A stretch of 64,000 nt of DNA, from positions 1-64,000 of the forward strand of contig JAAYVD010000023.1 of NCBI GenBank assembly GCA_012517355.1, read 5' to 3'. Below are positions 12,211 to 43,680 of the stretch, piece after piece. This DNA is from Candidatus Rifleibacteriota bacterium (GTDB taxonomy: Bacteria > Muiribacteriota > Ozemobacteria > Ozemobacterales > Ozemobacteraceae). Within the stretch, counting starts at the first letter, position 1, and each line of letters starts with the position of its first letter. Position numbers and translations under genes: made by a program. The notes under the pieces were generated by a model. That model saw only the letters and a list, made by a program, of their open reading frames with translations. It had not been told where the DNA came from and did no database searches.

Positions 12211-12356
12211 ACCCCTCTCCCGGCCGGGCGACCGCAGGCTTTCCCACTCCGGGTCACTTCCACTCCCAGAGGTCTTGCCGCCGGGGACCCGCACCCGACT
12301 CCGGGCCGGGAGACCATGGGCTTTCCCTCCCCGGGCCACGCCGGCACCCAGGGGTC
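12211..12356 (+). repeat. 64-base imperfect direct repeat
   Basis: Two copies, 12211-12274 and 12293-12356, share the blocks GGCCGGG-GACC, GGGCTTTCCC-type, CCGGG-CAC and AGGGGTC-type, spaced 82 bases apart. They fill most of the 330-base gap between sppA and the giant cyclase gene. No ORF with a ribosome site is visible in either copy. The remainder of the gap (12357-12535) shows nothing recognisable. Confidence 0.65.
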
Positions 12357-12535
12357 ATCCCGTCCCGGTCGGCGTTCCGGGCAACCCGGTGGGAACCATG
12401 GAACCCGTTCGGCTCCTCACCGGAATGGGATTCCGGGGTGCCGGTCGCCCAGGTTGCCGCAGAGCCTGAGCAGGGACATGGCAGATTCCGGCCCAGGAAA
12501 ACCACGACAGGCTGCCTGGAGAGGCTGAACCCGCG

Positions 12536-15500
12536 ATGACCGTTCCTTCCACCGGGGCCCCCGTCCCGCCGGTCCGGCCTTCCCCCTCGGCCCGCCTGCC
12601 GGGCGGTTGGCGGCTGCCGCTCCTCCTGTCCGTCCTTCCCGTGCTTTTCCTCGCCTACGAAGCCGACCGGCAGGCGGTCCTCGACCGGGAGGAGGCCGCC
12701 CGCCGGACCCTGGAACGGACCGCTCCGGCCGCCCGCCTGCTGCGGGACGGCTCCGCCCCGGGGTTTCCCGCCCGGTTCCTGGCCAGGCGCCTGAAGCAGG
12801 CCTGGGAAACCATCGACCAACCCGATGCCCCGACGGCCGCCCGGGCGGCCTCCCTGACCGCCTTGCTCCCCCGCCTGCAACGGGGCTTCCCCGATCCGGT
12901 CCAGGTCTGGGCGGTCGTCCTCCCGGGAGCCGACCCGGCCCTTCCCCCTGAGCCCCTCACCGGCCCCGGCCTGGCCACCCACCAGCGGACCCTGTTCACC
13001 CGCCTCCTGACCGACGTCCTGCAGCAGGAGGCCGGGACGGCCCGCCCGTTCGACGGCCGGGCCTGGGAATCCCGCTTGCGGGGCGTGTTCAGCTTCGGCT
13101 GCCTCCCCACCCTGTTCCAGGAACCGCAGGAGGGCAGTTCTCTGCCGGTGGTGTTCGCCCGCCAGCATGGCCAGCTGGTCTGGCAGACCTGCCGCCAAGG
13201 CTCCCGACTCCTTGGGGCGTTCGTCGTCATCCTCACCCCGCCGCCGGGAAAGGTCCAGCTCGCGGGGCTCCGGTTCCTGGCCGCCCGCTGGCGGGGTGCC
13301 GACCTGTTCCCCGCCTTCCTGCCGATGCCTGCCGAACCGGGGCCAGCTTCCGGCACACCCATGGGACCACCGGCCTGCCGACTCCCCGGGGTCGCCCCAC
13401 GGCTGGCCCGCTGGCTGCGGCGATCCGGCATCGGCCATTCCCCCAACCCCGGCGACCTGCGCGGCCGGCTTCACCTGCCCTGGCGGGGTGTCGACCGTCT
13501 GGAGCCGCTTGGCCCCTGGTGGATCCGGGTCTGTCCCCTCGATCCCGAGACCGGCCGGCTGGGCGTCCTGCTCGTCCGCCGCCCCCCGGTCCGCCCGGGA
13601 TGGCTGCAGGGGGCCGCCCGCCTGTCGCTGGGCATCTGGGTCCTGGCCTGGCTCTGGGCCGGCGGGCGACGATGGCGGGACGGCACCTGGCCCCAGCCCG
13701 GCCTCCGCGCCGCCCTCTTCCTCTGGTTCGGTGGCCTGGCCGCCGTGCCCATGCTGGCCGGCCTCGTCGCCGGGACCCGGTTCGCCGCCGCCCACCAGCG
13801 GAACCTGCAGGACGGCCTGGCGCGAACCCTCACCGCCCGCCTCGAGACGGTGGCGCAGGCGGCCACCGGCCTCTGGACCACCCAGGAGAAGATCTGCCGG
13901 GCCGTCCTCAACGACCCCTGGGAAGACGGCGCCACCCTCCTCGACCGTCTCGAGCGGCACCCCCTCGCGTCCGATACCCCTCCCCCCGCGATCCTCGAAG
14001 CCCGGCGACGGGTCCGGGCCGCCGGGGTCGCGGCCGACTCGGTGGTGGTCTTCCTGCCCGACGGCCGCCACTGGACCGAAGGAGCCACCGGTTCCCGCGA
14101 GCGCGACCTGGAAGCCAGCCTTCCCCTGCTGCAGCGGTTCTGGGCCGAGGATTTCCGGCCTCCGGAGGCCGACACGGCGTCCGACGAGGGAGGGACCGGG
14201 CTGGACTGGAACGTGAACCAGGTGTTCCGCGGCCGTGGGCAGACCGCCCGCGACCAGGTCGACCGGCTCTGGATCGGGCGGCGGCGGTTCATGGGCTTCG
14301 CCAGCCCGCTGCGGCGCGCCGGGCAGTTGCGGTTCGTGGTGGGTTTCATCTGGGACATGCATCCGGCCATCCGCCTCCACCTGGAGGAACACCTGCGGGC
14401 CAGCCCCCCCGAACCTCCCCTGGAAGGGATCGCCGCCTTCGCCGAACGGGGGTTGGGTTGGGAACCCATCGCCCGGTCCGGGGCAACGGGGGAACTCGGC
14501 CAGCTCGTCGGGCTGGCCACCTCGGGACAGCCGCGACCCCGGGCCCTGGCCGGGGGCACCGCCGTGGGCGTGGCCTTCCCCCTGCCTGGCTACCCCGGCT
14601 TCTGCCTCGCCGCCCGCGCCCCCCTCGCCGGGATCCGCGCCGCCGTGGCCCGCGAACGGGCTCTGCTGGCCGGCCTGCTCGCGGTGCTCCTGGCCGTCCT
14701 GGTCCTGGTCGGCCAGTTCCTGGCCACCTGGCTGGCCGGCCCGATGGTCCGGATGGCCCGCGCCCTCGAGGCCATCGCGGCTGGCCGCCTGGAGACGGGC
14801 GTCGCCGAGCCCCGCCCCGACGAACTGGGTCAGACCAGCCAGATCCTGGACCGCATGATCGCGGAACTCAGGACCCGGCGCGATATCACTCCCTTCGTCC
14901 CTCCGCCGGTCCTGGCCGCGGTGGCCGGCGGCAACCTGCGGGAGGCGGTGGCGGGACGCCGGGAACGGGTGGTGGTGCTGACCTCCGACATGCGTGAGTT
15001 CACCACCCTCAGCGAAACGCACCCCCCGGGGGAGGTGTTCCGCACCCTCAACACGCATCTGGCGGCCATGGCTGCGGCAATCCAGGACCACGGGGGAACG
15101 ATCGACCGCTTCATCGGGGATGCCGTGGTTGCCGTGTTCACCGGCACCCGTGGCGGGCCGGCCGCCCGCCGGGCGGTGGCTGCGGCCCGCGCCATGCGCC
15201 GGGCCCACCTGGAAATCCAGGGGGAACGCCGGGGGCAGGCCCGGTTCCCCTACGAGATCGGCATCGGGATCGACATCGGAGAGGTGGTGAGCGGCGTCGT
15301 CGGGGACGGCGAGGTCCGCCTCGATTTCACCGTCCTCGGGGAAGTGGTGGCACAGGCCGCCGAACTGGAAAACCTGTCCCGGACCGGCTCCCGGACCCGG
15401 ATCGTGCTGTCGGCCGCCCTGGTTCGCGACCTTCCGGACATCCCCGCCGTCCCCCTGTCCGCCCTGGGCGCGGAAATCATCGCCCTGGACCAACTCCCGC

Positions 15501-18500
15501 CAGGCGAGGAGGAAGCCGAACCCACCGTTTCCCGCAACGCCGGGGGCCCGGCCGATTCGATGGCGGAAGGGCTTCCCCCCTGCCGCCACGAAGAGCCGGG
15601 CGAACCGTCCGTGTCGCGCCACGCCGGGGGGCTCTCCCCTGCCCCGGAACCGCGGTTCGCCTGGTCGCTCGCCTGGGGGATGGCCCTCTGGCTGATTGTC
15701 GGACTGGGCCTGGCCGGGGGCTGGCACCGCTGGCTGGAAACCCGCAGCGAACGGTCCCGGCACGACGTGGAAGCCCTTCTGGCGGCCGATGTCCAGGATC
15801 TGTCGCCGTTCACCCGCCCCGACCTGGCCGCCACCTTCCGCCTCCAGGAAGCCTTCCCGCCCGTCATCCCCGGCGAAGCCTCCTATTCTCTCCCGCTGTT
15901 CCCCGATCGCCTCCGCAGCCGCCTGGAGCTCTGGGAGAAAGCCTTTCCGGGCATGTATTGGGCGTGGCTGCCCATTCCCGCCCAGGGTGAACCGCTATCC
16001 GCCCGGTTCGACCAGGTCGTGTCGGAAACCGGCTCCCGCCGCCTTCCCGGGATCGACCGCGACCGCACCCCCCCATCATGGGAGGCCCTCGACGTGGGCG
16101 GCGCCCTCCCGACCGGCCGCCTGGACATGGCTTCCGACGGCTCCTGGACCATGACCGCCGGCGGGGCGGGCCTGGGCGGCTACTGGGACGACGCATTCCT
16201 GGCCTTCCGCCCCGGCCCCCTCGACCGCCTGACCGCCCGGGTCAGGGTCGCGGCGGGCCCCGCCCGACCCGGAACCGCCGGACTCATGGTCCGGAACAGC
16301 CTGTTCGGCAACGCGCCGATGCTCTTCCTCGGCGTGGAGCCGGGCGGGGTGACCGTCGTCCGGCGCTCCGACCCCGATGACGCCGCCGAAACGTGGGGCT
16401 ATCCCCGACCCCTTCCGGCCGCCGGGACCTGGCTGCGCCTCGCCCGGGTCGCTCCCGATGCCGTTTGCGGTCAGGTGTCCGACGACGGCCAGCTCTGGTC
16501 CACCCTCGGAACCTGGACTTTCCCTCTGGACGGGGACACCCTCTGGGGTTTGTCCGGGTGCGCGCGCCTCGAACCCGACACCTCCGCCTGGCCGTCCTGG
16601 CCGGGGTTCTCCGTCGGCGGCCGGCTGCCCCCCGCCGTCTCTTCGGCCGACCTGCGCCACCTGCTGTTCCTCCTGTGGCGCGAGATGTACGGCGCCATTT
16701 CCCATGCCAGTGACGTCCCCGCCGACAGCGAGGCCTGGATCGCCCACCGGCTCCCCCTCATCCTCGGACTGTACAACCGGCCGTTCACCACCCTGCGGAC
16801 GGCCCAGGGAACCGCCCTCCCGGCCTCCCCCCCCGGAGGGCCGCGACTCCTTTTCCAGACCCCCGTCCTGACCGACGGTTCCCTGTTCGCTCCCGAGGAC
16901 AGCGCCTTCCGCGACGACCCCGGTCGCACCCCGGGTTCACGCTTCGATCCCGACCGGCTCCAGGAGCGGCAGGAAACCCACCGCCGGATCCGGGGGGTCC
17001 TGTTCCTCTCGTTCCCCGCCGACCGGGCGCCAGGCGTCCCGTCCCTCCCCTGGCTGCTCCGCCGCCTGCAGCGCCGGGGGGCGGAAGCCGCCCTGTTCCC
17101 CGCCCCCACCGCCCCGGGCCCCTGGCCGGTCACCACCCCACCGCCCGCCCAGGCCACGGTTCCCGCCACTCCCGCCCCCTCCTCGGCCATCACCCAGGCC
17201 ATTTCCCAGGCTCCCTCCCTCCCGGTGCCCTCCCAGCCAACCAACGCGCCACCGGCCAACGGAACCCAGGCAGAACCCTCTCCAGCCACCACCCCTCCGC
17301 CGCCCATCGCCGCCACTCCAGGCTGGCCCGCCGTTCTTCCCGTGACCGTCCCCCCCCTGTCGGGAACGCCGCAATCGACCGCCGTGGCCGGCTGGGTGAC
17401 TTGCCCCGGGCCTCCGCTGTCCGGCCCGGGCCCGGACCTGGCCGTGGTGGTGGCCCGCCCCCTGCCAGCGCCCTTGGCGTGGTATGTGGTGCCGGTCTTC
17501 GGCGCGGGCGCCTGGCTGGCGGCCGGATGGTGGCTCTGGCGGCGGCTCGGCGCCCAGTCTCCGCGGTTCCTTCCCCTCCGGCGGCAGCTGTTGGGTGGCT
17601 TTGTGGTGGCCGTCTTCCCCGCCCTCGTGTTGGCGGCCCTGACCCTCGAGCGGTCGCACCTCGCCCAGAAAACCCGCCTGGAAGCGGATGTCCGGGCCGA
17701 GCTGGCCACCCGGCTGGAAGCTCTCGACGCCTCCTCCGACCTGACCCGCGCCTGGACCACGAACCTCTTGCGCCAGGTCCTTGCCGACCCCACCCTGGCC
17801 GACTCCTGCGGGACCGGAACCGACGGCGCCCCCCACCGCACCACCGGGCCCGCCCGCCTGCAGGCCGCCTTCTTCCATCTCCTGGCCCGGGGGCTGCCGC
17901 TGGGAGACCTCTCGGCTTCCAACATCGACGGCCGGTGGGCCCACTTCAACCCTGACCACGAGGTCACCAAACGCGACGAGCCACGCCGGATCCTCGGCCA
18001 GCAGATCGCCCGCGAGGTCGCCCGGGCACACGGGTGGCCGGCCGGCACCACCTCGGGTCGCGACATGATGGTGGGGGCCCAGCTCGAGGAGACCCTCGAT
18101 TCCCTCGGCACGAACATGGGCCCCGACATGGCTGCCCGCTTCATGATGGCGCCCGACGTGACCATGGAGTGGTTCATGGGCACCGCCGTCAACGCGTGCA
18201 GCTACCTCGTCACCCTTCCCCCAGCCTCCGGGCCCGCGGTGAGCCTGATCGCCACTTTCCGCCTCCGGGGTCCGCATCGGTCCTGGTTTCTGGAAATGAT
18301 CGCCCCCCGGCGGCGGGGGGCCGCCCCCCGGCTGTCCCTCGTCGATCTCAACACCCCCGCCCACCGGATCGCCCCACCCGTCGACCAGTATGCCCGTTCC
18401 CCCAAGGGCAGGTGGTTGCGGCGGGAATGGGCCCGCCTGACCCCCCCCGCCGACCACCGGTTGGGCCTGCTGGCCCTCGCGCGCGACGCCCCGGTCGGCG

Positions 18501-19495
18501 AGACGCGGCGGGGCGGCCGCCGGGCCCGCCTCGCCCTGGCCACCCCCTTCCGCCACCAGCCGGGCTGGCTGGCCGTCGGGGAGGCCCCGCTCGGCCCCGC
18601 CCTCGCCAGGCTGGAAGACACCTTCCAGGCCCAGCGGGTGCTCCTCTTCGTCCTGTTGTGCCTCACCCTTTGGCTCGCCCGCCAGGTGGCAGACCAGTTC
18701 CTGACCCCCATCGCCCGGCTCGCCACCGCCGCCGACCGGGTCGCCGCCGGTGATTTCTCCGTGCGCATCTCGTGCGGGGAAGGCGGCGAGTTCGGGGCCC
18801 TCACCACCTCGTTCGATCGCATGGCCGAGGCCGCCCAGGAAGGCCGCCTCCTCGGCCGGTTCGTCTCTGACGCCACCCTGGCCACCCTGCGGCAGGGTCA
18901 GCGGGAGGCCTTCCGGGGCGGCGAAACCCGCCAGGCCGTCGTCCTGTTCGTCTCCCTGGCCGGGTTCAAGGATCTGCTGCCGGTCCGTGACCCGCACGAC
19001 CTGATCCGCCTGCTCAACACCGCCCTGACCGCGATGAGCCGGACGGTACGCGAGGAAGGAGGCGACATCGACAAGTTCATCGGCGACAAGCTGCTGGCCT
19101 TCTTCCCCCTCAGCCCCGACGAACCGGCACACCTCACCGTCGCCCGGGCCCTGCGCGCCGCCCTCCACCTGCCGGAACGCCTCGCCACCGCCCTGCCGGA
19201 AACGGCGGTCCGGCCCGCCGCCGGAGTGACCGTCGGCCCCGTCCTGTTCGGCGCGGTGGGCGCCCCCTCGGTGCGGCTGGAGATGACCATCATCGGCGAT
19301 ACCGTCAACCTGGCCGCCCGGCTGGCCGACCTGGCCGCCCACTCGGGCGAGGCGCTCCTGCTCGACGGAACCGCGGCGGCCCTGGCGAGCCCGGAACCGG
19401 CCGGCGCCCCCTGGCGGCTCGAGCCCCTCCCTGCCACCCGTATCAAGGGAAAGCGCCGCGAGGTGGAGATCTTCCGCTGCTGCCCCCCCGCCTGA
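12536..19495 (+). CDS. Giant membrane protein with two complementary class III nucleotide cyclase domains
   Basis: 2319 residues in two similar halves. Half 1: TM near 25-42, a pair of TMs near 359-412, an extracytoplasmic region, TM near 709-735, HAMP about 730-785, cyclase about 808-960. Half 2: TM near 1041-1060, an extracytoplasmic region including a concanavalin-like beta-sandwich (about 1185-1362), a Pro/Ala/Thr-rich linker (1522-1598), TMs near 1647-1705, a second sensor region, TM near 2035-2055, HAMP, cyclase about 2128-2290. Domain 1 has metal ligands D818 and D862 (44 apart) but A939 and E943 replace the catalytic Asn and Arg. Domain 2 has K2180, D2184, T2251, N2258 and R2262 but S2140 replaces the first metal Asp. 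The halves should therefore complement each other at one active site. Start ATG 12536 has GGAGAGG upstream. Substrate, ATP or GTP, is not certain. Confidence 0.9.
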   Translation: MTVPSTGAPVPPVRPSPSARLPGGWRLPLLLSVLPVLFLAYEADRQAVLDREEAARRTLERTAPAARLLRDGSAPGFPARFLARRLKQAWETIDQPDAPTAARAASLTALLPRLQRGFPDPVQVWAVVLPGADPALPPEPLTGPGLATHQRTLFTRLLTDVLQQEAGTARPFDGRAWESRLRGVFSFGCLPTLFQEPQEGSSLPVVFARQHGQLVWQTCRQGSRLLGAFVVILTPPPGKVQLAGLRFLAARWRGADLFPAFLPMPAEPGPASGTPMGPPACRLPGVAPRLARWLRRSGIGHSPNPGDLRGRLHLPWRGVDRLEPLGPWWIRVCPLDPETGRLGVLLVRRPPVRPGWLQGAARLSLGIWVLAWLWAGGRRWRDGTWPQPGLRAALFLWFGGLAAVPMLAGLVAGTRFAAAHQRNLQDGLARTLTARLETVAQAATGLWTTQEKICRAVLNDPWEDGATLLDRLERHPLASDTPPPAILEARRRVRAAGVAADSVVVFLPDGRHWTEGATGSRERDLEASLPLLQRFWAEDFRPPEADTASDEGGTGLDWNVNQVFRGRGQTARDQVDRLWIGRRRFMGFASPLRRAGQLRFVVGFIWDMHPAIRLHLEEHLRASPPEPPLEGIAAFAERGLGWEPIARSGATGELGQLVGLATSGQPRPRALAGGTAVGVAFPLPGYPGFCLAARAPLAGIRAAVARERALLAGLLAVLLAVLVLVGQFLATWLAGPMVRMARALEAIAAGRLETGVAEPRPDELGQTSQILDRMIAELRTRRDITPFVPPPVLAAVAGGNLREAVAGRRERVVVLTSDMREFTTLSETHPPGEVFRTLNTHLAAMAAAIQDHGGTIDRFIGDAVVAVFTGTRGGPAARRAVAAARAMRRAHLEIQGERRGQARFPYEIGIGIDIGEVVSGVVGDGEVRLDFTVLGEVVAQAAELENLSRTGSRTRIVLSAALVRDLPDIPAVPLSALGAEIIALDQLPPGEEEAEPTVSRNAGGPADSMAEGLPPCRHEEPGEPSVSRHAGGLSPAPEPRFAWSLAWGMALWLIVGLGLAGGWHRWLETRSERSRHDVEALLAADVQDLSPFTRPDLAATFRLQEAFPPVIPGEASYSLPLFPDRLRSRLELWEKAFPGMYWAWLPIPAQGEPLSARFDQVVSETGSRRLPGIDRDRTPPSWEALDVGGALPTGRLDMASDGSWTMTAGGAGLGGYWDDAFLAFRPGPLDRLTARVRVAAGPARPGTAGLMVRNSLFGNAPMLFLGVEPGGVTVVRRSDPDDAAETWGYPRPLPAAGTWLRLARVAPDAVCGQVSDDGQLWSTLGTWTFPLDGDTLWGLSGCARLEPDTSAWPSWPGFSVGGRLPPAVSSADLRHLLFLLWREMYGAISHASDVPADSEAWIAHRLPLILGLYNRPFTTLRTAQGTALPASPPGGPRLLFQTPVLTDGSLFAPEDSAFRDDPGRTPGSRFDPDRLQERQETHRRIRGVLFLSFPADRAPGVPSLPWLLRRLQRRGAEAALFPAPTAPGPWPVTTPPPAQATVPATPAPSSAITQAISQAPSLPVPSQPTNAPPANGTQAEPSPATTPPPPIAATPGWPAVLPVTVPPLSGTPQSTAVAGWVTCPGPPLSGPGPDLAVVVARPLPAPLAWYVVPVFGAGAWLAAGWWLWRRLGAQSPRFLPLRRQLLGGFVVAVFPALVLAALTLERSHLAQKTRLEADVRAELATRLEALDASSDLTRAWTTNLLRQVLADPTLADSCGTGTDGAPHRTTGPARLQAAFFHLLARGLPLGDLSASNIDGRWAHFNPDHEVTKRDEPRRILGQQIAREVARAHGWPAGTTSGRDMMVGAQLEETLDSLGTNMGPDMAARFMMAPDVTMEWFMGTAVNACSYLVTLPPASGPAVSLIATFRLRGPHRSWFLEMIAPRRRGAAPRLSLVDLNTPAHRIAPPVDQYARSPKGRWLRREWARLTPPADHRLGLLALARDAPVGETRRGGRRARLALATPFRHQPGWLAVGEAPLGPALARLEDTFQAQRVLLFVLLCLTLWLARQVADQFLTPIARLATAADRVAAGDFSVRISCGEGGEFGALTTSFDRMAEAAQEGRLLGRFVSDATLATLRQGQREAFRGGETRQAVVLFVSLAGFKDLLPVRDPHDLIRLLNTALTAMSRTVREEGGDIDKFIGDKLLAFFPLSPDEPAHLTVARALRAALHLPERLATALPETAVRPAAGVTVGPVLFGAVGAPSVRLEMTIIGDTVNLAARLADLAAHSGEALLLDGTAAALASPEPAGAPWRLEPLPATRIKGKRREVEIFRCCPPA

Positions 19496-19631
19496 CGAGG
19501 CTTGCCGGCGCGCCACCCCTCCCTCCCCTTGACGCAGGCTGTCGCGGGGCTCAGAATCCGGCGCGGCGGCGGTTCACCCGTGGCCGACCCCGCCGAGGGG
19601 GAAGCCTCCTGGGGAAACGCGGCGGCGGCGG

Positions 19632-21014
19632 TCAGTCCGCCCGGTAGTTGTCGAGGGCGGCCTCGATCTCCTCGGCGGTGGCCAGCCCTTCCCCGATCAG
19701 GATGTCGGGCACCGGCTCGCCGGTCTTCAGGTGGCGCAGGTAGACCTGCGACATCGCGTCGTGCCCGAGCCGCTTGGCCAGCACGGTCAGGATGCCCAGC
19801 GAGCCGCGCAGGTTCTCCCGGCACCGCTGCTCGTTCGCTTCCAACCCCTTGATGCACCGGTCGTTGAACAGCCCGATCCCGCGGCGCAGGATGGTCAGCG
19901 ACTCCAGCAGCACGTCCATGATCACCGGCAGGAAGGCGTTCAGCTCGAGCTGCCCCATCTCGGCCGCGTGCGTGATCACCAGGTCGTTGCCGTAGACCTT
20001 CATCGCCACCTGGTTGATCATCTCGCACATCACCGGGTTGACCTTGCCCGGCATGATGCTGCTGCCCTCCTGCACCGCCGGCAACCGGATCTCCCCCAGC
20101 CCCGACCGCGGCCCCGAGGACAGCAGCCGCAGGTCGCTGGCCATCTTGCCCAGGTTGACGGCGAGGGGCTTCAACAGACCCGAGATCTCGGGAAACACGT
20201 CGGCGTTCTGGGTCGCCTCGACCAGATTGTCGGCCCGCGCCAGCCCGATGCCCGTCTCGTCGCGCAGGATGCGCACGAACTCGAACTGGAACTTGCGCGA
20301 AGCGTTGATGCCCGTGCCGACCGCCGTGCCGCCGATGTTGACCACCCGCAGCCGCTCCTCGACCCGGTAGAGCCGCCAGCGATCGCGCGAGATCGATTCC
20401 GCCCAGGCCGAAAATTCTGCGCCGAGCGTCACCGGAACCGCGTCCTGGAGCTGCGTGCGACCGATCTTCAGGATGTGCGCGAACTCGGCTTCCTTCTTCT
20501 GCAGACTCTCCTGCAGCCTGGCCACCTCGTCGACCAGGTCCCGCAGTTCCCAGATCGCGGCGATCCGCACCGCGGTGGGGAACACGTCGTTGGTGCTCTG
20601 GCCCAGGTTCACGTCGTCGGTCGGATGGACCGGGCTGTAGCTGCCCAGCCGCGACCCGACCAGCTCGTTGGCCCGGTTGGCGACGATCTCGTTGGCGCAC
20701 ATGTTGGTGGCCGTCCCCGCCCCGCCCTGCAGCGGATCGATGATGAACTCGGCATCGAACCGGCCGTTGGCCATCTCGTCGCAGGCTTTCTCGATGATGC
20801 CCACCTTGACCTTGTCGAGACCCCCCAACTGCCCGTGCGCCAGCGCGGCCGATTTCTTGATCAACGCCAGCGCCCGGATCATCGACCGGTGGATGCGCCG
20901 GCCCGACACCGAGAAGTTCTCGGCGGCGCGCACCGCGTGGATGCCGTAGTAGGCCTCCACCGGCACCTCCCGCTCCCCGAGGAAGTCGCGTTCGACCCTG
21001 GTTTCCGCTTTCAT
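19632..21014 (-). CDS. aspA: Aspartate ammonia-lyase
   Basis: A 460-residue member of the fumarase/aspartase superfamily converting aspartate to fumarate and ammonium. It has the superfamily signature GSSIMPGKVNPV, the substrate-loop segment STNDVFPTA, and TATNMCANEIVANRA. The N-terminus RVERDFLGEREVPVEAYYG-type is characteristic of aspartase rather than fumarase. Start ATG 21014 lies 2 bases after the hydE stop, so the two genes are translationally linked and aspA is the last gene of the hydrogenase operon. Its placement with hydrogenase maturases suggests ammonium or fumarate supply linked to that pathway, an inference only. The gap 19496-19631 to the convergent cyclase gene shows nothing clear. 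Confidence 0.93.
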   Translation of the reverse strand: MKAETRVERDFLGEREVPVEAYYGIHAVRAAENFSVSGRRIHRSMIRALALIKKSAALAHGQLGGLDKVKVGIIEKACDEMANGRFDAEFIIDPLQGGAGTATNMCANEIVANRANELVGSRLGSYSPVHPTDDVNLGQSTNDVFPTAVRIAAIWELRDLVDEVARLQESLQKKEAEFAHILKIGRTQLQDAVPVTLGAEFSAWAESISRDRWRLYRVEERLRVVNIGGTAVGTGINASRKFQFEFVRILRDETGIGLARADNLVEATQNADVFPEISGLLKPLAVNLGKMASDLRLLSSGPRSGLGEIRLPAVQEGSSIMPGKVNPVMCEMINQVAMKVYGNDLVITHAAEMGQLELNAFLPVIMDVLLESLTILRRGIGLFNDRCIKGLEANEQRCRENLRGSLGILTVLAKRLGHDAMSQVYLRHLKTGEPVPDILIGEGLATAEEIEAALDNYRAD

Positions 21015-21016
21015 GC

Positions 21017-22075
21017 TCAGTAGACCCGCCTCCGGATGTGCCCCTGGCCGGTATTGACCGTGCGGCCCAGGCCGACGATCATCCGCTCCACGCACGTTCT
21101 ACACGCCCCGGCGTCGTCCGTCAAACAGATCTTGCCGGGATAGAGCTGATACTCCTCGCGATGGGTCATCGGCGAGACGTTCGGCATCACCACGTTGGCC
21201 CCGGCCCGCAGCGCCTTCTGACGCCCCTGCGGGTCGATGCTGCCCATCGCCGTCGTGGCCGGCAGAAACGCATCGGGCAGATACAGCCGCAGCAGGGCCA
21301 GGAAGGTCAGGCAGGCCGCCAGGGTCCCGCCCGGCGCCCCCGCCAACGGCGTGGCCGGATGGGGAATGAACGGCCCGATCCCGACCATCTCCGGCCGCAG
21401 GGCCCGCAGATACTCGAGATCGCGACCCAGGCTGGCCCCGTCCTGGCCCGGCAGGCCGACCAGGATGCCGCTGCCCACCTGGTAGCCCAGCTCCTTCAGG
21501 TCCTGCAGGCAACGATGCCGGTTCTCCCAGGTGGAGTGTGGGTGGAACCGCGCATACAAGGCGGGGTCGGCCGTCTCGATGCGCAGCAGGTACCGGTCCG
21601 CCCCCGCCGCCTTGAACGCGGCATACGCTTCGCGCGGCCATTCCCCGATCGACAGGGTCAACGCCACGTCGTGTCGCTCCTTGACCGCCCCAATGATGCC
21701 GCACAGGTCGTCGGCCGTGTAGCCCGGATCCTCGCCCGACTGCAACACGAAACTCCGGTAGCCCATCGCCACCGCCCCCCCGATGGTGTCGACGATCTCC
21801 TCACGGGTCAGGCGGTACCGCGGCAACCCGGCATTCAGCGCGGAGATGCCGCAATAGGCGCACTGGCACCGGCAGACGTTGCTGAATTCGACGATGCCGC
21901 GCAAAAACACCTCGTCCCCCAACACCCGCCGCCGCACCTCGTCGGCCATCCCGAACAGCCGCTCCCGATGCGGGTCGAAGGCCGGGGAAAACACGAACCC
22001 GGCCTGTTCCGGCGTCAGGGCTGCCCGCGTCTCCAAACTCTGCCAGAGCATTTCCAGGTCCATCCGTTCCGCCAT
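21017..22075 (-). CDS. hydE: [FeFe] hydrogenase H-cluster radical SAM maturase HydE
   Basis: A 352-residue radical SAM protein of the HydE type, involved in building the diiron subcluster of [FeFe] hydrogenase. The CX3CX2C motif is C68-C72-C75 within NVCRCQCAYCGIS, followed by YRLTREEIVDTI and the QSGEDPGYT loop typical of HydE. The C-terminal Cys pair (GACRTC) resembles the auxiliary cluster site. Start ATG 22075 is preferred over upstream in-frame codons because AAGGGGTGAG lies just before it and the family length is about 350. It follows hydG in the operon after an unusual 461-base purine-rich gap and is followed 2 bases later by aspA. Confidence 0.93.
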   Translation of the reverse strand: MAERMDLEMLWQSLETRAALTPEQAGFVFSPAFDPHRERLFGMADEVRRRVLGDEVFLRGIVEFSNVCRCQCAYCGISALNAGLPRYRLTREEIVDTIGGAVAMGYRSFVLQSGEDPGYTADDLCGIIGAVKERHDVALTLSIGEWPREAYAAFKAAGADRYLLRIETADPALYARFHPHSTWENRHRCLQDLKELGYQVGSGILVGLPGQDGASLGRDLEYLRALRPEMVGIGPFIPHPATPLAGAPGGTLAACLTFLALLRLYLPDAFLPATTAMGSIDPQGRQKALRAGANVVMPNVSPMTHREEYQLYPGKICLTDDAGACRTCVERMIVGLGRTVNTGQGHIRRRVY

Positions 22076-22089
22076 CCGACTCACCCCTT

Positions 22090-22530
22090 CACCCTTCGAT
22101 TCCGCCTTGCCGATCGGCCCGGCGACTCCCCTCGCCCTTCCCCTGCGCCCTCGCCCTCTTTCCTTCGCCCTCTTTCCTTCATCCTTGGTTCTCCTCACCA
22201 GGCTTTTTCAACCAGCGCAAGCCACGCCTTCCCACCTGTCACGCCCCCCACCCTCTCCCCTTCTCCCGCTTCCCCCCTTCCCCTGCGCCCTCGCCCTTGT
22301 TCCCTTGTCCTCGCTTCTTCTCCTCGTGTCTTCTCCTTCTTTCTTCTCCTTCTTTCTTCTCGTTCTAACTTCTCCTTCTAACTTCTCCTTCTAACTTCTC
22401 CTTCTTGCTTCTCCTTACTTTCTTCTCCTTCTTTCTTCTCCTTTGTTTCTCCTCCTTCTTTCTTCTCCGTTGCTTCTTCTCCTCGCCTTTTCTCCTCGTT
22501 CCAAAAGTCCAAGCTCCCCTCCTTTCCTCC
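22090..22530 (-). repeat. Homopurine/homopyrimidine tract between hydG and hydE
   Basis: On the plus strand 22250-22530 is almost pure C and T, with tandem units such as TTCTCCTTCTAACTTCTCC repeated around 22350-22430. On the transcribed minus strand it is nearly pure A and G. Two longer direct repeats, beginning CCTTCCCCTGCGCCCTCGCC, lie at about 22135 and 22276. It falls between co-oriented operon genes and contains no ORF with a ribosome site. Mirror-like purine tracts of this type can form triplex DNA and slip during replication. Confidence 0.85.
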
Positions 22531-22536
22531 GCCCGG

Positions 22537-23928
22537 TCAGTAGGGGATGTCTCGCTCGCCTTTCTTGATGCGGGCCCGCCAGTCCTGCATCCGCCGCCGC
22601 ATCTCCGGATCGGCCTGACGCTCGATGAACTCCCCCAGACGCCGCTCGGCCACCGCCCGCGTCTCCTCCGACGCGTAGTCCTCGAGGTATTCCTGCAGCG
22701 TGGCCACGGCGTTCAACGAACAGAAGGTGTCGATGTGCTGGTGCTTCGCCATCTCCTGGAACTTCCCCCCGGTGCGCCCCTTCCGGTAACACCCGGTACA
22801 GAAACTGGGAATGTAGGAATCCTGGCACACCTCCCGGATCACCTCGTCGAGCGACCGGTGATCCTGCACCGCGAACTGCGGGACCGTCCCCTCGCCTTCG
22901 GCATACCCACCGGGATTGGTGATGGAGGCGGCCGACATCTGCGACACCCCGACCCGCAGCAACTCCCGGCGCAGCGCGGCCGATTCCCGCGTCGACAGGA
23001 TGATGCCCGTATACGGCACCGCCAGCCGCAGGATGGCTGTGACCTTGATCAGATCCCCATCGGAAACCTTCCACGGGGTCGTCTCGTAGACGTCCGTCCC
23101 CTCGGCCGGCTCCAGTCGCGGAATCGAAATGGTGTGCGGCCCGATCCCGAACTCCCGCTCGAGCCAGGCGATGTGCTCCATCAGTGCCAGCACCTCGAAC
23201 CGGTGGTCGTACAGACCGAACAGCACACCCATCCCGAAATCGTCGATGCCCGCGCGGATACACCGGTCGAAAACGTGCAACCGGTTCCCCATGTCGCTCT
23301 TGGGCCCCTTCGGATGCATCTTCTGGTAGGTCTCCGGATGGTAGGTCTCCTGGAAACACTGGGAGGTCCCGATCCCCACCTCCTTCAGCAACCGGAAACT
23401 GTCGATGTCGAGCGGGGCGCAGTTGACGTTCACCCGCCGGATGTTGCCCTTCGGAGTCGTCACCGAGTAGATCGCCGCCATCTGGTCGGCCAGGTCGCGC
23501 GCCGTCAGCAGGGGGTCCTCCCCCGCGACCATCAGGACCCGCTTGTGCCCCATGGCGATGATGGCTTCCGTCTCCCGCCGGACCTCGTCGAGCGACAACC
23601 GCCGCCGGGGGGTGTTCGACCGGCTCCGGAAGCCACAATACAGGCACTCGTTGGTGCAGTGGCTCGAGGTGTAGAGCGGCGCGAACAGGACCAGTCGGGG
23701 GCCGTAGATGGCTTCCTTGACCCTGATGGCGACCGCCGCCAGGGCCTGCCGGTCCTCGGGGGTGTCGACCCGCAGCAGGAAGGCGATCTCCTCCTGCGTC
23801 AGGCCTTCCAACCGTCCGGCCTTGTCCAGCACCTCGGCGAACCGCCCCCGGTCGAACGCCGGAGCGCTCCGCAGCAAGGCATCCACCCGCCCGGGATCGA
23901 AAATTTCGGTATGTGCGAAAGTGGTCAT
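22537..23928 (-). CDS. hydG: [FeFe] hydrogenase H-cluster radical SAM maturase HydG
   Basis: A 463-residue tyrosine-cleaving radical SAM enzyme that supplies CO and cyanide for the H-cluster. The SAM cluster cysteines are C91, C95 and C98 (CTNECLYC). The C-terminal auxiliary cluster motif SFCTGCYRKGRTGGKF, followed by FCSLNA, is diagnostic of HydG and separates it from ThiH. ATG 23928 has AGGGAGA 8 bases upstream and gives a family-typical length. It starts 37 bases after the hydA stop, in the operon hydCBA-hydGE-aspA. HydF, the scaffold GTPase, is not in this window and must be encoded elsewhere if the hydrogenase is active. Confidence 0.96.
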   Translation of the reverse strand: MTTFAHTEIFDPGRVDALLRSAPAFDRGRFAEVLDKAGRLEGLTQEEIAFLLRVDTPEDRQALAAVAIRVKEAIYGPRLVLFAPLYTSSHCTNECLYCGFRSRSNTPRRRLSLDEVRRETEAIIAMGHKRVLMVAGEDPLLTARDLADQMAAIYSVTTPKGNIRRVNVNCAPLDIDSFRLLKEVGIGTSQCFQETYHPETYQKMHPKGPKSDMGNRLHVFDRCIRAGIDDFGMGVLFGLYDHRFEVLALMEHIAWLEREFGIGPHTISIPRLEPAEGTDVYETTPWKVSDGDLIKVTAILRLAVPYTGIILSTRESAALRRELLRVGVSQMSAASITNPGGYAEGEGTVPQFAVQDHRSLDEVIREVCQDSYIPSFCTGCYRKGRTGGKFQEMAKHQHIDTFCSLNAVATLQEYLEDYASEETRAVAERRLGEFIERQADPEMRRRMQDWRARIKKGERDIPY

Positions 23929-23965
23929 GACTCGTTCTCCCTGGGCTTGGGGACCCCCCACAGCC

Positions 23966-25708
23966 CTACCAGTATTTGCTGCGCGGAAAGAAGCGCGTGT
24001 GCAGGATCTCCCGACATTTCGGACCGTCGGGCTTGCCGAGGAACTCTTCATACACGGTCTGGACGGCCGGGTTGTCGAGGGGCCGGCGCAGGGGCTTGCC
24101 CTGGTTTTCCCGCCACAGGGCGGAAGCCCGCGCCGAGCGGACCTCGAAGGTGGTCGCGCGCGACTGGCCCCCACCCCCCACGCACCCGCCCGGACATCCC
24201 ATCAGTTCGAGAAAGACGAAGCCCGCCGGATTGCCGGCCTTGACCTCGTCCAGCAGGGCGCGGGCTGCTCCCAGGCCGCTGGCGGCCGCCACCGCGAAGG
24301 CTTTGTCACCCACCTGGAGGCGGGCCCGCCGGGTTTCCGCCATGCCGCGGATGCCGTCATACTCGCCCGCTGTGGCCGCCGGGGCGCCCAGGATCCCGCG
24401 CACCGTCTCGAAGGTGGCCTCGAGAACACCTCCCGTCGCCCCGAACGAGGTTCCCGGCCCGGAAGCCGTTCCCATGGGGGAGTCGAAACTCTCCTCGGGA
24501 AGGGTGCCGAACCCGATCCCCCCCTCCCGGATCAGCCGCGCCAGCTCCCGGTTCGTCAGGACGTAGTCCACGTCCCGCCCCGCGCCGGTCTTCATTTCGG
24601 TCCGGGCGGCTTCGAACTTCTTGGCGGTGCAGGGCATGACCGACACCACCCTGATGTGGCGCGGGTCGAGCCCCCGGCTGGCCGCGAAAAAACTCTTGGC
24701 GAGCGCGCCGAACATCTGGTGGGGCGACTTGCAGACCGACAGGTGGGGCAACAGGTCAGGGAAGAAATGCTCGACGAACTTGACCAGGCCGGGGCTGCAG
24801 CTCGAGATCAGCGGCAGCGGCCCTCCCTGGCGCAGCCGCCGCACCAGTTCGTGCCCTTCCTCGACCGCCACCAGGTCCGCCGCGAAACTGGTGTCGAACA
24901 CGTACCGGAACCCCAGCCGCCGCAGCGCCGCCACCACCTGCCCGGTCATGATCGTCCCGGGCGGGCGGCCGAACTCCTCCCCCAGGGAAACACGCGTGGC
25001 CGGCGCCACCTGGGCGATCACCGTCAACCCAGGGTCCCCGAGCGCTTCCCAGATGGCATCGAGATCGTGCTGCTCGTGCAGCGCTCCCACCGGGCAGGCC
25101 AGGATGCACTGCCCGCACCCCACGCAGGGCGACTCCCCCAGCCCCCCCGCGAATGGGCTGGTCACCTGCGTTTTCCCGCCCCGGAACGCGAACCCGATCG
25201 CCTCGACGGTCTGCACCGACCGGCAGACGTGCACGCACCGACCGCACAGCAGGCACTTGTTGGGGTCGCGGACCAGCGCGGGATGCGAGGAATCGGGGAA
25301 GAACCCCTCCTTGGGACCCCGGGGGAAATACCGCACCCGGATCCCCGACTCGTGGGCCAGCTTCCGCAGCTCGCAATCCTCGCTGCGGTCGCAAGTGGTG
25401 CAATCGTCGGGATGGCTGGCCAGCAGCAGTTCGACCAGCATCCGCCGCGTTCGCCGCACCACCGCCGAGGAGGTTTCCACGACCATGCCCTCGGCCACCT
25501 GGGTCTCGCAGGCCGGCTTCAGATCACGCTCTCCCTTGACCTCCACCACGCACACCCGGCAGAAACCGTGGTGCTCCCGGGCCTGCCGGGAACACAACCG
25601 CGGAATGGCCACCCGGATGGAGGCGGCCGCCTCCGCGATGGTGGTTCCCCGCTCGACCTGCAGGGGACTGCCGTTGATGACCAGGTTCACCTTCCCGTTG
25701 TTGCCCAT
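23966..25708 (-). CDS. hydA: [FeFe] hydrogenase catalytic subunit HydA
   Basis: A 580-residue catalytic subunit. Domain order: 2Fe-2S domain (C39, C50, C53, C67), His-ligated 4Fe-4S (H99, C103, C106, C112), two 4Fe-4S ferredoxin sites (152-162 and 195-205), then the H-cluster domain. The motifs are L1 ISSCSPGLV (301-309), L2 MPCTAKKFEA (C360) and L3 ELMGCPGGCVGGGGQ (C505, C509). L1 departs from the consensus TSCCPxW: the second Cys, normally a ligand of the H-cluster cubane, is S305, and the Trp is Leu. ATG 25708 sits 11 bases after the hydB stop and gives a start matching the 2Fe-2S domain. Together with hydB and hydC it forms a trimeric NAD-linked enzyme. Confidence 0.93.
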   Translation of the reverse strand: MGNNGKVNLVINGSPLQVERGTTIAEAAASIRVAIPRLCSRQAREHHGFCRVCVVEVKGERDLKPACETQVAEGMVVETSSAVVRRTRRMLVELLLASHPDDCTTCDRSEDCELRKLAHESGIRVRYFPRGPKEGFFPDSSHPALVRDPNKCLLCGRCVHVCRSVQTVEAIGFAFRGGKTQVTSPFAGGLGESPCVGCGQCILACPVGALHEQHDLDAIWEALGDPGLTVIAQVAPATRVSLGEEFGRPPGTIMTGQVVAALRRLGFRYVFDTSFAADLVAVEEGHELVRRLRQGGPLPLISSCSPGLVKFVEHFFPDLLPHLSVCKSPHQMFGALAKSFFAASRGLDPRHIRVVSVMPCTAKKFEAARTEMKTGAGRDVDYVLTNRELARLIREGGIGFGTLPEESFDSPMGTASGPGTSFGATGGVLEATFETVRGILGAPAATAGEYDGIRGMAETRRARLQVGDKAFAVAAASGLGAARALLDEVKAGNPAGFVFLELMGCPGGCVGGGGQSRATTFEVRSARASALWRENQGKPLRRPLDNPAVQTVYEEFLGKPDGPKCREILHTRFFPRSKYW

Positions 25709-25719
25709 CCGCCTTCCGC

Positions 25720-27042
25720 CTATTTCCAGCAGACCTGCCGGGGACATTCCTGCCGCTCGAAATGGGCGGCGAATTCATCCGGGAACAGCCGCAAGGCACT
25801 GGTGATGGCCACCCCTGCCGACCGGCCCAGGCCGCAGGCCGAAGCCCGCGAAATCGTCTCGACCAACGGCTCCAGCAACGCGAAGGGGCGGGGGGGCGGC
25901 ACCTCCCGCCAGGCGTCCCGCCGCCCTTCGCCCGCGGTTTTTCGACGGGGTCCGGAGATGTCCTCCAGGATCTCCCGCAACCTGGCGGTTCCTTCCCGGC
26001 AGGGCGTGCAGCGGCCGCAGGATTCCTGTTCGAAAAAGGCGGCCAGGCGCTGGGCGACCTGCACGAAACAGCACCGGTCGGAAAAAACGATGACCGCCCC
26101 GGAGCTCAGACAGGTGCCGTACCGCTCGAGACCCTCCTGCGAAACGGGGGCGTCGAAGTCCCTCGCCGGTAGGAAGCCCGAGACCGCCCCCCCGGGCAGC
26201 ACCGCCACGATCTCCTCGCCCGGCCGGGCCCCCCCGGCCAGCTCCAGGACCCGCCGCAACGGGGTTCCCGTCGGCACCTCGTAGACACCGGGGTGGCGGA
26301 TGTGCCCGCTGACGCTCAAAACCCTCGTCCCCGGCTCTGCCGGAAGCCCGATACCACGAAACCAATCGGCCCCGCGATCGATTATGAAGGGGACATTGGC
26401 CAGCGTCTCCACGTTGGAGACCAGGGTCGGATGGCCCTGGAACCCTCTTTCGACCGGGTAGGGCGGCCGGACCCGGGGATGCCCCCGACGCCCCTCGGCC
26501 GATTCCAGCAGGGCGGTCTCCTCGCCGCAGCAGAAAACTCCCGCTCCGATCTCCACCCGCAGCTCGAAAGCGAACCCCCGGCCAAGGATGTCCGTTCCCA
26601 CGAGCCCCTGTTCCGTCATCTGCCCGACCGCCTCCTGGAACCGGCAGCGGGTGTCCTTCGCCCCCTTGCGGATGATGCAGATCCCGTGCCGGGCGCCGGC
26701 GGCGAAACCCGCCAGCAGGATCCCTTCCAGGATCAAAAAGGGGCTCCCCTGCAGAAGCCGACCGTCCTTGAACGCGCCCGGCCCTCCCTCCTCGCCGTTC
26801 ATCACCACGTATCTTTCGGGGTCGGCCGCCTGGGCCATGGCCTCCACCTTCAGCCCGGAGGGGTAACAACTGCCACCCCGCCCGCGCAGTCCGGAGCGGC
26901 TGATCTCGGCGCGCACTTCCGCCGGACTGAGGGACCGCAGGGCTTTGGTCAGAGCGGCAAACCCGCCCGCCCGCCGGTATCCGTCCAGGCTTTGCACGCC
27001 TGGAACCGCCAGATGGTCCAGGAGGAATTCCCGCCCGGTCAT
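25720..27042 (-). CDS. hydB: NuoF-like NAD(H)/FMN subunit HydB of [FeFe] hydrogenase
   Basis: A 440-residue homologue of NuoF, the flavin subunit that exchanges electrons with NAD(H). The FMN/NAD site GLRGRGGSCYPSGLK is at 51-65, the NADH-binding GAGVFCCGEETALLE at 166-180, and 4Fe-4S ligands C342, C345, C348 and C403. Unlike classical bifurcating HydB proteins of about 600 residues, it lacks the N-terminal thioredoxin-like 2Fe-2S domain and a complete C-terminal two-cluster ferredoxin domain; only ECPRQVC remains at the end. The start ATG overlaps the hydC stop by four bases. A shortened HydB raises the question whether this enzyme is truly bifurcating or simply NAD-linked. Confidence 0.93.
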   Translation of the reverse strand: MTGREFLLDHLAVPGVQSLDGYRRAGGFAALTKALRSLSPAEVRAEISRSGLRGRGGSCYPSGLKVEAMAQAADPERYVVMNGEEGGPGAFKDGRLLQGSPFLILEGILLAGFAAGARHGICIIRKGAKDTRCRFQEAVGQMTEQGLVGTDILGRGFAFELRVEIGAGVFCCGEETALLESAEGRRGHPRVRPPYPVERGFQGHPTLVSNVETLANVPFIIDRGADWFRGIGLPAEPGTRVLSVSGHIRHPGVYEVPTGTPLRRVLELAGGARPGEEIVAVLPGGAVSGFLPARDFDAPVSQEGLERYGTCLSSGAVIVFSDRCCFVQVAQRLAAFFEQESCGRCTPCREGTARLREILEDISGPRRKTAGEGRRDAWREVPPPRPFALLEPLVETISRASACGLGRSAGVAITSALRLFPDEFAAHFERQECPRQVCWK

Positions 27043-32099: not shown

Positions 32100-34589
32100 C
32101 TATTGTTTCAGGAATTCGAATCGGGACCACTTCTTCCCGACCGACACATGATACCTCTTCGGCTCGTATTTGCCAACATCCCGGATCACGGACAGCGGGG
32201 AGATCCGGCAGGCGGGCCCGTTGTAGAAGACCTCCAGGCTGTGGCAGAAACTCCGTTGGAAATCGTTGGTCACCAGGTTGCCGTCGATCACCAATCCGTG
32301 CCCTGCCGCGGTATAGACCGACGAGTTGGAATAACACGCGGCTTCGATCCGGTGGCATGCCCCGGTGACGTTCAGCGCTCCCTGCCGGGCGATCAGCCCG
32401 AACACCGTTTCCCCTGGGGCACCTTGCCGCTTGACGTCCTTCGTGGCCGTGATGTTGCCCTTCACGACGAGCAGCCCCTTTCCCTTCACCTTGAACTCGG
32501 AACCGGGGGCGTTGCCGATGTTCAGGTTCCCTTTCACATAGGTCACCCCGGTACAGTCGTAGACCCCCCCGGAAAAGCGCTCGGCATCGGCCCAGAACTG
32601 ACCTTCGTCCTCGTAGAAATGGTCCGCCTTCTTGGCATACTGCAGCGTGCTGTAGAGGTTGGCCGGCATGAAGGTGTAGTCGACGGGGTCCCAGCGGCAG
32701 GAACCGTCATAACTCGGAAGGCCGGGCAGACCATACGGCTTTTCCAGATTCTTGTAGTCGATGTACGTCCGGGTGATGTCTTTGGGGGAGCTGTCCTGTC
32801 CTCGTGGATCGACCCGAACCTTGACATTGGCGTGACGCATGTCCAGGTAGGCTTCTCCCTTGAGGCCAAGAGGATACTCGAAGTGGCCATCGCCGAATAG
32901 AAGGGTTGGGGCGGTCAGGGCGTCGCAAAAGTCGAGAAGGTTCTTCAGCGTTTCCACCCCGTAGGGGTTGTACGGAGACCAAACCCGGTTGAGATGCTTG
33001 ACCACCGGGAAATCCACCTCGTGGACGGGGGACTTGTCCTTCCACTGGAACATGGGAACCAGTTGGAAGGGTTTGGCGACGAACTTGTTGCCAGCCAAGG
33101 CATTGTACTCGGTGAGGGTGGGTTCGTCCTTCGTCCCCAGGAAGGTGTTGATCGTCATTTTCCCGTTGGCATTCACCCGAAGCATGCCGGGCACCTGACA
33201 GGTGGAATCGGCCCCTGAACTGCCCCCGCTCAGACCATCCAGGGTGTCGTATTTCTTCTGGGGGATGTGGTGGATGGAGATGGTGGCGATGCCGATCGCC
33301 GGGGTGCTCTCGTTCGGAGGGGCTTCATACCACTTGATGGGAGTGCCGAGGCCCATGGAGAAGTCCTCGTTGACGAGGTCGGAATTGGCCACGAAGAACG
33401 TGTATTCCGGCCCCACCGGCTGGATGTCGGAGACCTTGAACTCACGGTCGGCGATCAGGGTCCGCAGGATGGTCTTTCCGCCGGCCCCCTGGGGTTTGTA
33501 CTCGACCTCGACGGTCACCCGGAGCATCAGGCCTTTCTCCACGACCTGAGGGGGTGAAAAGGGAGAGCCGCCGTTGATCTTGCCCTTGATCGCTCCGGGA
33601 ATGGCGCTGTACCCGTTGTTGGCTGCACTGTTGAACACCGTCGCCCCCCAGTCGCGGCTCAGATCGGTGCTTCCCATGATCATGTCGAGAATGGAGGAAA
33701 GGGCCAGGGGACGGGCCCCGATATCGACGTATTTTTTGAAGACCTCTTCGAAATCGATCTCCTTCGACTCATCGATGTCATGGCCCGGACACTCCACCCT
33801 GATGCGGGCCCGGACCTTGGTGGCCGACAACTTGGTGAGGTACACCGTGGCATCAACCAGGCCGGAGAAGATACCGGCATCGACATCGATCTCATGCTGG
33901 TCCTGGGTGGTCACGTTCAATGGATTCAGAGTCGTGTTGGGGAGGTAGAACTGGAAATCGATGACACCCACCAGTTGGGACAAAGCCCCATAACTCGGGG
34001 CGGTCGGCGTGAGCTTGTCGAGCATCTTGGCGGAATCGCCCTGGGCCGGGGCATGCTTCACCGAGACGGCGGCAACCTGGTAATCGTCTTTCTTCGAGCT
34101 GAAAGCCTCCGCCTGGATCACTTCCACATCGACGTTCAGCTTGGTCACATGGGAGGTGCCTCCCATCTCGGTGATCAGGCTCTGGGCGGCTTCCAGGCCC
34201 TCGGTCGTGGGGTTGGCCACCAGGTCGAACGTGAGAGGCGTGGAATACGGATCGATGTCGAGCGGGACGTTCGCCTTGCCACTGGCGTCGCCAGACTTGA
34301 AGTTGGATGCCCCGTCGAACACCAGAGGATAGCGGAACAAGGGATAGAAGTTCGCCTCGCTGGGATCGTTCATCGTGTCTTTGATCCGCCGGAGAACGAG
34401 TTCGGCGACTGACTCGGCCAGGGCTTCCGCCCGCTTTTCGTTGCTCATGATGCGGGTCGTGAAATGCCGGGCGATGTTCCCCCGGAAAAACCCCAGCACG
34501 ATCACCAGGATGACCGAGATCACCCCGATCACGATCAGGTAGGCCGAACCCTTTCGGAAAGACCGTTGGCGTTCAAAACTCCGGATCAT
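32100..34589 (-). CDS. Large PilX/GspK-like membrane-anchored protein
   Basis: An 829-residue protein with one N-terminal membrane helix (RKGSAYLIVIGVISVILVIVLGFFRG, residues 12-37), then a long extracytoplasmic region. The start resembles PilX/GspK-type minor pilins (basic patch, Gly, helix), although the usual Glu5 is not obvious. The C-terminal 200 residues contain parallel-beta-like strands (VTYVKGNLNIGN, GLLVVKGNITATKD, FGLIARQGALNVTG, HGLVIDGNLVTND), as in polymer-forming or right-handed beta-helix domains. ATG 34589 overlaps the end of the upstream gene by 17 bases and has GGAGAGGG upstream. With the two pseudopilin genes it probably forms a lineage-specific tip complex. Confidence 0.75.
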   Translation of the reverse strand: MIRSFERQRSFRKGSAYLIVIGVISVILVIVLGFFRGNIARHFTTRIMSNEKRAEALAESVAELVLRRIKDTMNDPSEANFYPLFRYPLVFDGASNFKSGDASGKANVPLDIDPYSTPLTFDLVANPTTEGLEAAQSLITEMGGTSHVTKLNVDVEVIQAEAFSSKKDDYQVAAVSVKHAPAQGDSAKMLDKLTPTAPSYGALSQLVGVIDFQFYLPNTTLNPLNVTTQDQHEIDVDAGIFSGLVDATVYLTKLSATKVRARIRVECPGHDIDESKEIDFEEVFKKYVDIGARPLALSSILDMIMGSTDLSRDWGATVFNSAANNGYSAIPGAIKGKINGGSPFSPPQVVEKGLMLRVTVEVEYKPQGAGGKTILRTLIADREFKVSDIQPVGPEYTFFVANSDLVNEDFSMGLGTPIKWYEAPPNESTPAIGIATISIHHIPQKKYDTLDGLSGGSSGADSTCQVPGMLRVNANGKMTINTFLGTKDEPTLTEYNALAGNKFVAKPFQLVPMFQWKDKSPVHEVDFPVVKHLNRVWSPYNPYGVETLKNLLDFCDALTAPTLLFGDGHFEYPLGLKGEAYLDMRHANVKVRVDPRGQDSSPKDITRTYIDYKNLEKPYGLPGLPSYDGSCRWDPVDYTFMPANLYSTLQYAKKADHFYEDEGQFWADAERFSGGVYDCTGVTYVKGNLNIGNAPGSEFKVKGKGLLVVKGNITATKDVKRQGAPGETVFGLIARQGALNVTGACHRIEAACYSNSSVYTAAGHGLVIDGNLVTNDFQRSFCHSLEVFYNGPACRISPLSVIRDVGKYEPKRYHVSVGKKWSRFEFLKQ

Positions 34590-35496: not shown

Positions 35497-35573
35497 TGCT
35501 TCCTCTCTATTCTATGAAGGGATTCACAAGAGGGTTTCAGGTTTTCCCGGGCAAGACCGGAAGCCCTGCCTCC

Positions 35574-35584
35574 AAACTAGCACA
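35574..35584 (-). promoter_or_regulatory. Extended -10 element before the pseudopilin set
   Basis: On the minus strand TGTGC-TAGTTT (TAGTTT = 35579-35574), the same wording as other extended -10 boxes here. No good -35 is visible. It lies between the TPR/TerB-like gene and the first gene of the set. Confidence 0.45.
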
Positions 35585-35611
35585 GAACGGGCCGGGCGAC
35601 CAGGAGGGGGT

Positions 35612-37441: not shown

Positions 37442-37541
37442 GGGCCCTCCGGTTGGTTCGATCGCGCGGGGGAATGCCCCGCCGCTTTCTGTCATGGTAC
37501 ACCGGGCACCCGGGGAATACAAACCGCTCTCCCGGGCCGGG

Positions 37542-37570
37542 TTGCTTCTTCGGGGCCGCCGGGGTATCCT
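37542..37570 (+). promoter_or_regulatory. Predicted ferritin promoter
   Basis: TTGCTT (37542-37547), a 17-base spacer and TATCCT (37565-37570), 50 bases before the ferritin ATG. No Fur-like palindrome is recognised. Confidence 0.55.
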
Positions 37571-37619
37571 TGCCTCCAGCGCGGTTCCGGCGCCCATCGA
37601 CACCCTGAAGGAGACGGAC

Positions 37620-38141: not shown

Positions 38142-38144
38142 CCG

Positions 38145-43658: not shown

Positions 43659-43680
43659 GGTGGAATGGCCTGCTCCCGGC

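Follow-up and report, generated by a model that had tools for sequence, protein, structure and literature searches.

Predicted C1/C2-like division of catalytic residues in a family of membrane-bound bacterial class III cyclases

Class III nucleotide cyclases assemble their active sites at a dimer interface, where the metal-binding aspartates of one domain meet the lysine, threonine, asparagine and arginine of the other. In the mammalian transmembrane adenylyl cyclases, the C1 domain has both metal aspartates and the C2 domain the substrate-binding and transition-state residues, leaving one active and one degenerate site. These enzymes are single chains formed of a duplicated membrane and cyclase unit, with C1 preceding C2 (M1-C1-M2-C2; PMC9552081). 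Soluble adenylyl cyclase (ADCY10) is also a single C1-C2 chain, of class IIIb-like type. Catalytic residues are likewise shared out between two partners in the heterodimeric guanylyl cyclases, which are eukaryotic, GTP-specific and linked to other sensors: the alpha/beta soluble enzyme has a pseudosymmetric site devoid of key residues (PMC3591389) and the NeoR/RGC rhodopsin cyclases are obligate heterodimers (PMC7655827). According to a 2022 review (PMC9552081), the class III cyclases of bacteria are monomers that form homodimers, a strain may have up to 30 isozymes, and the duplication and fusion behind the membrane C1-C2 cyclases took place in early eukaryotes.

We analysed a window of 64,000 nucleotides from a Candidatus Rifleibacteriota genome (contig JAAYVD010000023.1) that contains one gene with the following features:

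12536..19495, + strand: whole gene for a predicted single-chain pseudo-heterodimeric class III cyclase of 2319 residues; one open frame, with a homologue of the same length in Candidatus Ozemobacter sibiricus (L076/L186)
12536..14716, + strand: membrane and sensor region of half 1 (residues 1-727), with two extracellular-type alpha/beta domains and transmembrane helices, from hydropathy and an AlphaFold2 model of half 1
14717..14872, + strand: HAMP 1 (residues 728-779), Pfam PF00672
14960..15445, + strand: cyclase domain 1 (D1), C1-like, from domain alignment and a residue check by script
15632..18694, + strand: end of the linker, and membrane and sensor region of half 2, homologous to that of half 1, from hhalign of the sensor regions
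18695..18838, + strand: HAMP 2 (residues 2054-2101), Pfam PF00672
18929..19474, + strand: cyclase domain 2 (D2), C2-like, from domain alignment and a residue check by script

We consider it very probable that the gene encodes a membrane-bound class IIIb adenylyl cyclase working as a pseudo-heterodimer, in which a single active site lies between D1 and D2, the second site is dead and two sensors act on one output. The two transmembrane-sensor-HAMP-cyclase halves proposed by an earlier, sequence-only reading are borne out by the single open frame and by a Pfam search that returned two HAMP and two Guanylate_cyc (PF00211) domains, the latter at 85 bits against a curated cut-off of 21.9, which places the protein among the class III nucleotide cyclases.

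A residue check by script reproduced the division of catalytic residues put forward in the same reading. D1 retains both metal aspartates, D818 (14987-14989) and D862 (15119-15121), and carries A939 (15350-15352) and E943 (15362-15364) at the positions of the transition-state asparagine and arginine. It also has T932 at the threonine position and R858 at the lysine position, and its C-terminal segment bearing the phosphate-binding lysine is absent. D2 has S2140 (18953-18955) rather than an aspartate at the first metal position, an aspartate at the second (D2184), and K2180 (19073-19075), T2251 (19286-19288), N2258 (19307-19309), R2262 (19319-19321) and K2304 (19445-19447). The residue spacings equal those of an intact cyclase encoded in the same window (38511-40931), in which D554, K594, D598, T668, N675, R679 and K716 are all present.

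This residue split follows that of C1 and C2 in the mammalian transmembrane enzymes. Unlike them, the window protein is bacterial and has large extracellular-type sensors and HAMP domains instead of six-helix membrane domains and a CTE helix; each half has far fewer predicted transmembrane segments, with large intervening domains and a HAMP ahead of each cyclase domain. Its base-selecting pair is of the class IIIb Lys/Thr type (K2180/T2251 in D2), whereas mammals have Lys/Asp, and the bacterial family has dozens of paralogues, many of them as two genes. The C1-like and C2-like profiles match the C1 and C2 regions of ADCY10, but that enzyme is soluble, with adjacent C1 and C2 domains, a long C-terminal region and neither HAMP nor extracellular sensors, whereas about 1160 residues including transmembrane helices lie between D1 and D2 and the window protein ends soon after D2. 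The closest solved relatives of each domain are the bacterial class IIIb cyclases CyaB of P. aeruginosa, CyaC of Spirulina, OaPAC and bPAC, which, unlike the window protein, are homodimers of complete domains with two sites. The Lys/Thr pair and these nearest relatives point to ATP as the substrate, and we infer cAMP as the product. The sensor regions matched no Pfam family in the window protein or in any of 12 relatives.

The source genome (assembly size 7.1 Mb), whose named relatives are Candidatus Ozemobacter sibiricus and other Riflebacteria/Ozemobacteraceae bins, contains 87 Pfam Guanylate_cyc matches. We extracted the stretches around most of them, aligned the domains and classified these by catalytic residues, as C1-like (both metal aspartates present, Asn/Arg pair absent) or C2-like (Asn/Arg present, first metal aspartate absent). 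Among 88 class III cyclase domains, 31 are C1-like, 29 are C2-like and 28 are complete; the complete domains, with both metal positions and Asn/Arg intact, serve as an internal control from the same pipeline. All but three of the 60 degenerate domains sit in 28 loci, of which 12 are fused genes and 16 are pairs of adjacent genes; every locus has at least one C1-like and at least one C2-like domain. Since the 28 pairs are related by descent, no simple probability is assigned to this pattern. The three degenerate domains without a complementary partner nearby are in C50, C112 and C166. The one in C112 belongs to a lone C2-like gene of 809 residues (L050:5830-8256, G000:C112) with no C1-like neighbour within the extracted stretch, and it may pair with a distant partner. 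One of the 28 loci (L033, G000:C20:7000-23000) has a row of three cyclase genes, the first two C1-like and the last C2-like with histidine at the first metal position. The genome also encodes 24 cNMP-binding domains, which are possible receivers of the signal.

Using an alignment of first domains as the query, we retrieved additional loci in the same family, covering 11 genera, and assembled 56 distinct fused proteins with two cyclase domains from independent assemblies. They were classed by domain position only, so the residue counts are free of circularity. Both metal aspartates are present in 56 of 56 first domains, in which the asparagine position is mostly K, A, R or Q and the arginine position mostly E, A, K or D. 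Second domains have the lysine, the asparagine and the arginine in 56/56, the threonine in 55/56 and the phosphate lysine in 54/55, with arginine in the remaining one. Their first metal position is mostly Gly, Ala, Thr or Ser; the second is Asp in 30/56 and Glu in 23/56 and thus acidic in most, so that the second site appears to have been lost by one aspartate and not two. The retained residues are among the most conserved columns of their own domain, the lost positions fall in its variable part, and the proteins are not near-copies, as median pairwise identity is 41% for first domains and 34% for second domains. The C1-like domain comes first in every fused gene.

The losses are therefore not random, since position alone predicts the retained residues, and the earlier proposal that they are specific and complementary holds as a family trait, seen in 28 loci of the source genome and in 55 of the 56 fused proteins. 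The single exception, a 2054-residue open frame (L261:7380-13541), has both the asparagine and the arginine in its first domain (SIVGEHFNRAAR), through either reversion or retention of an ancestral remnant. The first-domain profile has a C1-like domain as its best match in every one of the family's 24 genomes, and in six genomes from other families of the phylum the best matches examined are complete cyclases. This agrees with a large family, apparently unremarked, that is present throughout the Ozemobacteraceae. Some of its fused double cyclases occur in tandem arrays of two to three genes (L236, G014:C152:12000-31900; L255; L256; L263). The accompanying premise that bacterial class III cyclases are usually homodimers does not extend to this family, in view of the 28 pairs in the source genome, 16 of them as adjacent genes.

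The two halves of the fused proteins align by hhalign over 908 columns (E 6e-63), and the sensor regions alone over 522 columns (E 1e-20; reversed control E 0.34). This homology over their length identifies the protein as a duplicated transmembrane-sensor-HAMP-cyclase unit, and alignment evidence of this strength indicates that the two halves arose by duplication. Trees computed without the catalytic columns place the C1-like domains apart from the C2-like ones, with matched subgroups in each: one of fused proteins that includes the window protein, another of fused proteins, and one of split pairs. In the larger tree some split pairs lie outside these main groups. One fusion event behind every fused gene was not rejected (AU p 0.079 and 0.40), and we therefore do not claim the two fusions that the tree suggests. 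The split partners are co-inherited, with mirrored distance matrices (Mantel r 0.86; top of 2000 permutations 0.51). In most pairs the two genes touch or overlap and are read in different frames, so they are not fused genes broken by one stop codon. Split pairs in reversed order, with the C2-like gene first, were observed at L032 and L034 (related L226, L234), and their C2-like domains lie outside the main C2 group of the larger tree.

To model the relative position of the two domains, we folded the 1200-residue D1-to-D2 span of a homologue (L082) from an input of 14 fused sequences, as a stand-in for the longer span of the window protein (pLDDT 76, pTM 0.54). The top two PDB matches of this model are human AC5 and a Gs-bound membrane adenylyl cyclase (AC9), over about 1200 columns with a large overall rmsd, and further AC9 entries and AC8 appear lower in the list. 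Query-normalised TM-scores are 0.25-0.28 against the AC5/AC9-type enzymes versus 0.13-0.17 against single-domain cyclases. In contrast, half 1 of the window protein alone (AlphaFold2) gave a best TM-score of 0.18, with the AC5/AC9-type enzymes absent from the top 50. The L082 matches fit a superposition of the modeled D1 and D2 together on a C1:C2 dimer.

We infer from these data that D1 and D2 pair and catalyse, and that the two sensors have their signals integrated. D1 would give the two metal-binding aspartates (D818, D862), and D2 the adenine-selecting Lys/Thr (K2180, T2251), the transition-state Asn/Arg (N2258, R2262) and the phosphate-binding lysine (K2304), with the domains pairing head to tail to form one active site. 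Because the metal aspartates and the Lys/Thr/Asn/Arg set are split between the domains, a complete site would form only by D1:D2 pairing, at one site of two, and neither half would be active with a copy of itself; the mirror site would be dead and may be regulatory. As each half has its own diverged sensor within a separate transmembrane-sensor-HAMP module, two inputs would converge on one output and the active site should integrate both. Where one cell has 88 cyclase domains, such complementary losses would also stop paralogues from forming active homodimers. Residue anatomy and homologue conservation support the C1/C2-like pseudo-heterodimer as a predicted family trait, with complementary residues making one site complete and leaving the other incomplete in the window protein and in its relatives. 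Weighing against this reading are the pTM of the L082 model and its large rmsd to AC5/AC9, the exception at L261, and the acidic second metal position of most second domains.

The C1-like and C2-like halves could instead pair between molecules, even of different paralogues, as a combinatorial set and not as fixed intramolecular pairs. If the split pairs are active, the family does use pairing in trans, as 16 of the 28 pairs in the source genome are separate proteins, and the long membrane-spanning stretch that parts D1 from D2 in the window protein also leaves room for it. We nevertheless regard a combinatorial set as unlikely, given that partners are fused or adjacent, that the split ones are co-inherited and that the C1 and C2 subgroups match in the trees, although each of these observations is compatible with cross-pairing too. 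We find it very improbable that the fused protein lacks catalysis and serves as a receptor or regulator, with its cyclase domains acting only as dimerisation modules. Pseudo-enzymes are common and each domain is degenerate alone, yet precisely those residues that one composite site requires stay unchanged across 56 diverged proteins, and the rest drift; a dead protein would not retain two metal aspartates in one domain and Lys/Asn/Arg in the other.

Descent from a fused ancestor shared with the eukaryotic C1-C2 cyclases, either soluble or of the 12-TM type, appears improbable. Within human soluble adenylyl cyclase, the C1-like profile has its best match in the C1 region (chain residues 41-176) and the C2-like profile in the C2 region (265-417), but these matches are biased by the shared catalytic residues, and bacterial single-domain cyclases outscore the human enzyme. 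Moreover, the membrane and sensor parts differ from those of the eukaryotic enzymes, and the Ozemobacteraceae halves are still homologous over their full length, as expected of a separate duplication; the C1/C2 trees consist of bacterial sequences only. Although the source is a metagenome-assembled genome, we attach negligible probability to chance decay or an assembly artefact and reject it, because 28 loci of that genome have the split, as do 55 of the 56 fused proteins drawn from independent assemblies across 11 genera, and the 28 complete cyclases, processed alongside, show no such losses.

Four Spirochaetales loci (L118, L121, L140 and L142) have adjacent genes of about 525 and about 600 residues with the same complementary split, the first gene without Asn/Arg and the second with His in place of the first metal aspartate. 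The L118 and L142 domains cluster together (100/98), inside the ordinary cyclases. Joining the Spirochaetales C1 domains with those of Ozemobacteraceae was rejected (AU p 0.018) and joining the C2 domains was not (AU p 0.08); these p values lean low, as the clades were named after a first tree had been seen. A separate, independent origin of the Spirochaetales split is likely. At L118:6508-9834, the two genes are in the same frame with a single stop codon between them. Elsewhere, a Candidatus Methylomirabilis bin has a C1-like and a C2-like gene side by side, with sizes like those in Ozemobacteraceae (L112:5059-10852); transfer or misbinning is possible for this pair.

Strong sequence evidence thus supports the finding made in the window as real, with a reading that holds on a wider scale than first proposed. 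A search of the open-access literature, outside which most subscription journals lie, returned no paper on cyclases of this phylum and none on natural heterodimeric bacterial class III cyclases, and novelty is provisional for that reason. A bacterial family with 88 cyclase domains and 28 C1/C2 pairs in one genome contrasts with the picture of homodimerizing monomers in the 2022 review. Within it, a change of the kind that gave rise to the eukaryotic enzymes is available in dozens of natural replicates, both fused and split, and one can directly test why such a change took place (insulation, integration of two signals or a spare regulatory site). We give an even chance to a broader scenario in which the mammalian C1/C2 division arose separately in this family and was multiplied there into dozens of two-input cyclases per genome, with cognate-only activity insulating paralogues and each site integrating two different extracellular sensors, and in which Spirochaetales did so independently.

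Several other open frames were observed in the window. Two long ones, 12254-15763 (−) and 16937-19516 (−), of 1169 and 859 residues, run antisense to the cyclase gene and are most likely a by-product of GC-rich codon usage. Those at 19731-26284 (+), 32100-34640 (−), 35309-38377 (+) and 41106-43787 (+), some of which flank the complete cyclase, had no Pfam match at E 0.001. A HAMP-GAF-GGDEF protein, a probable diguanylate cyclase, is encoded at 62331-63980 (−).
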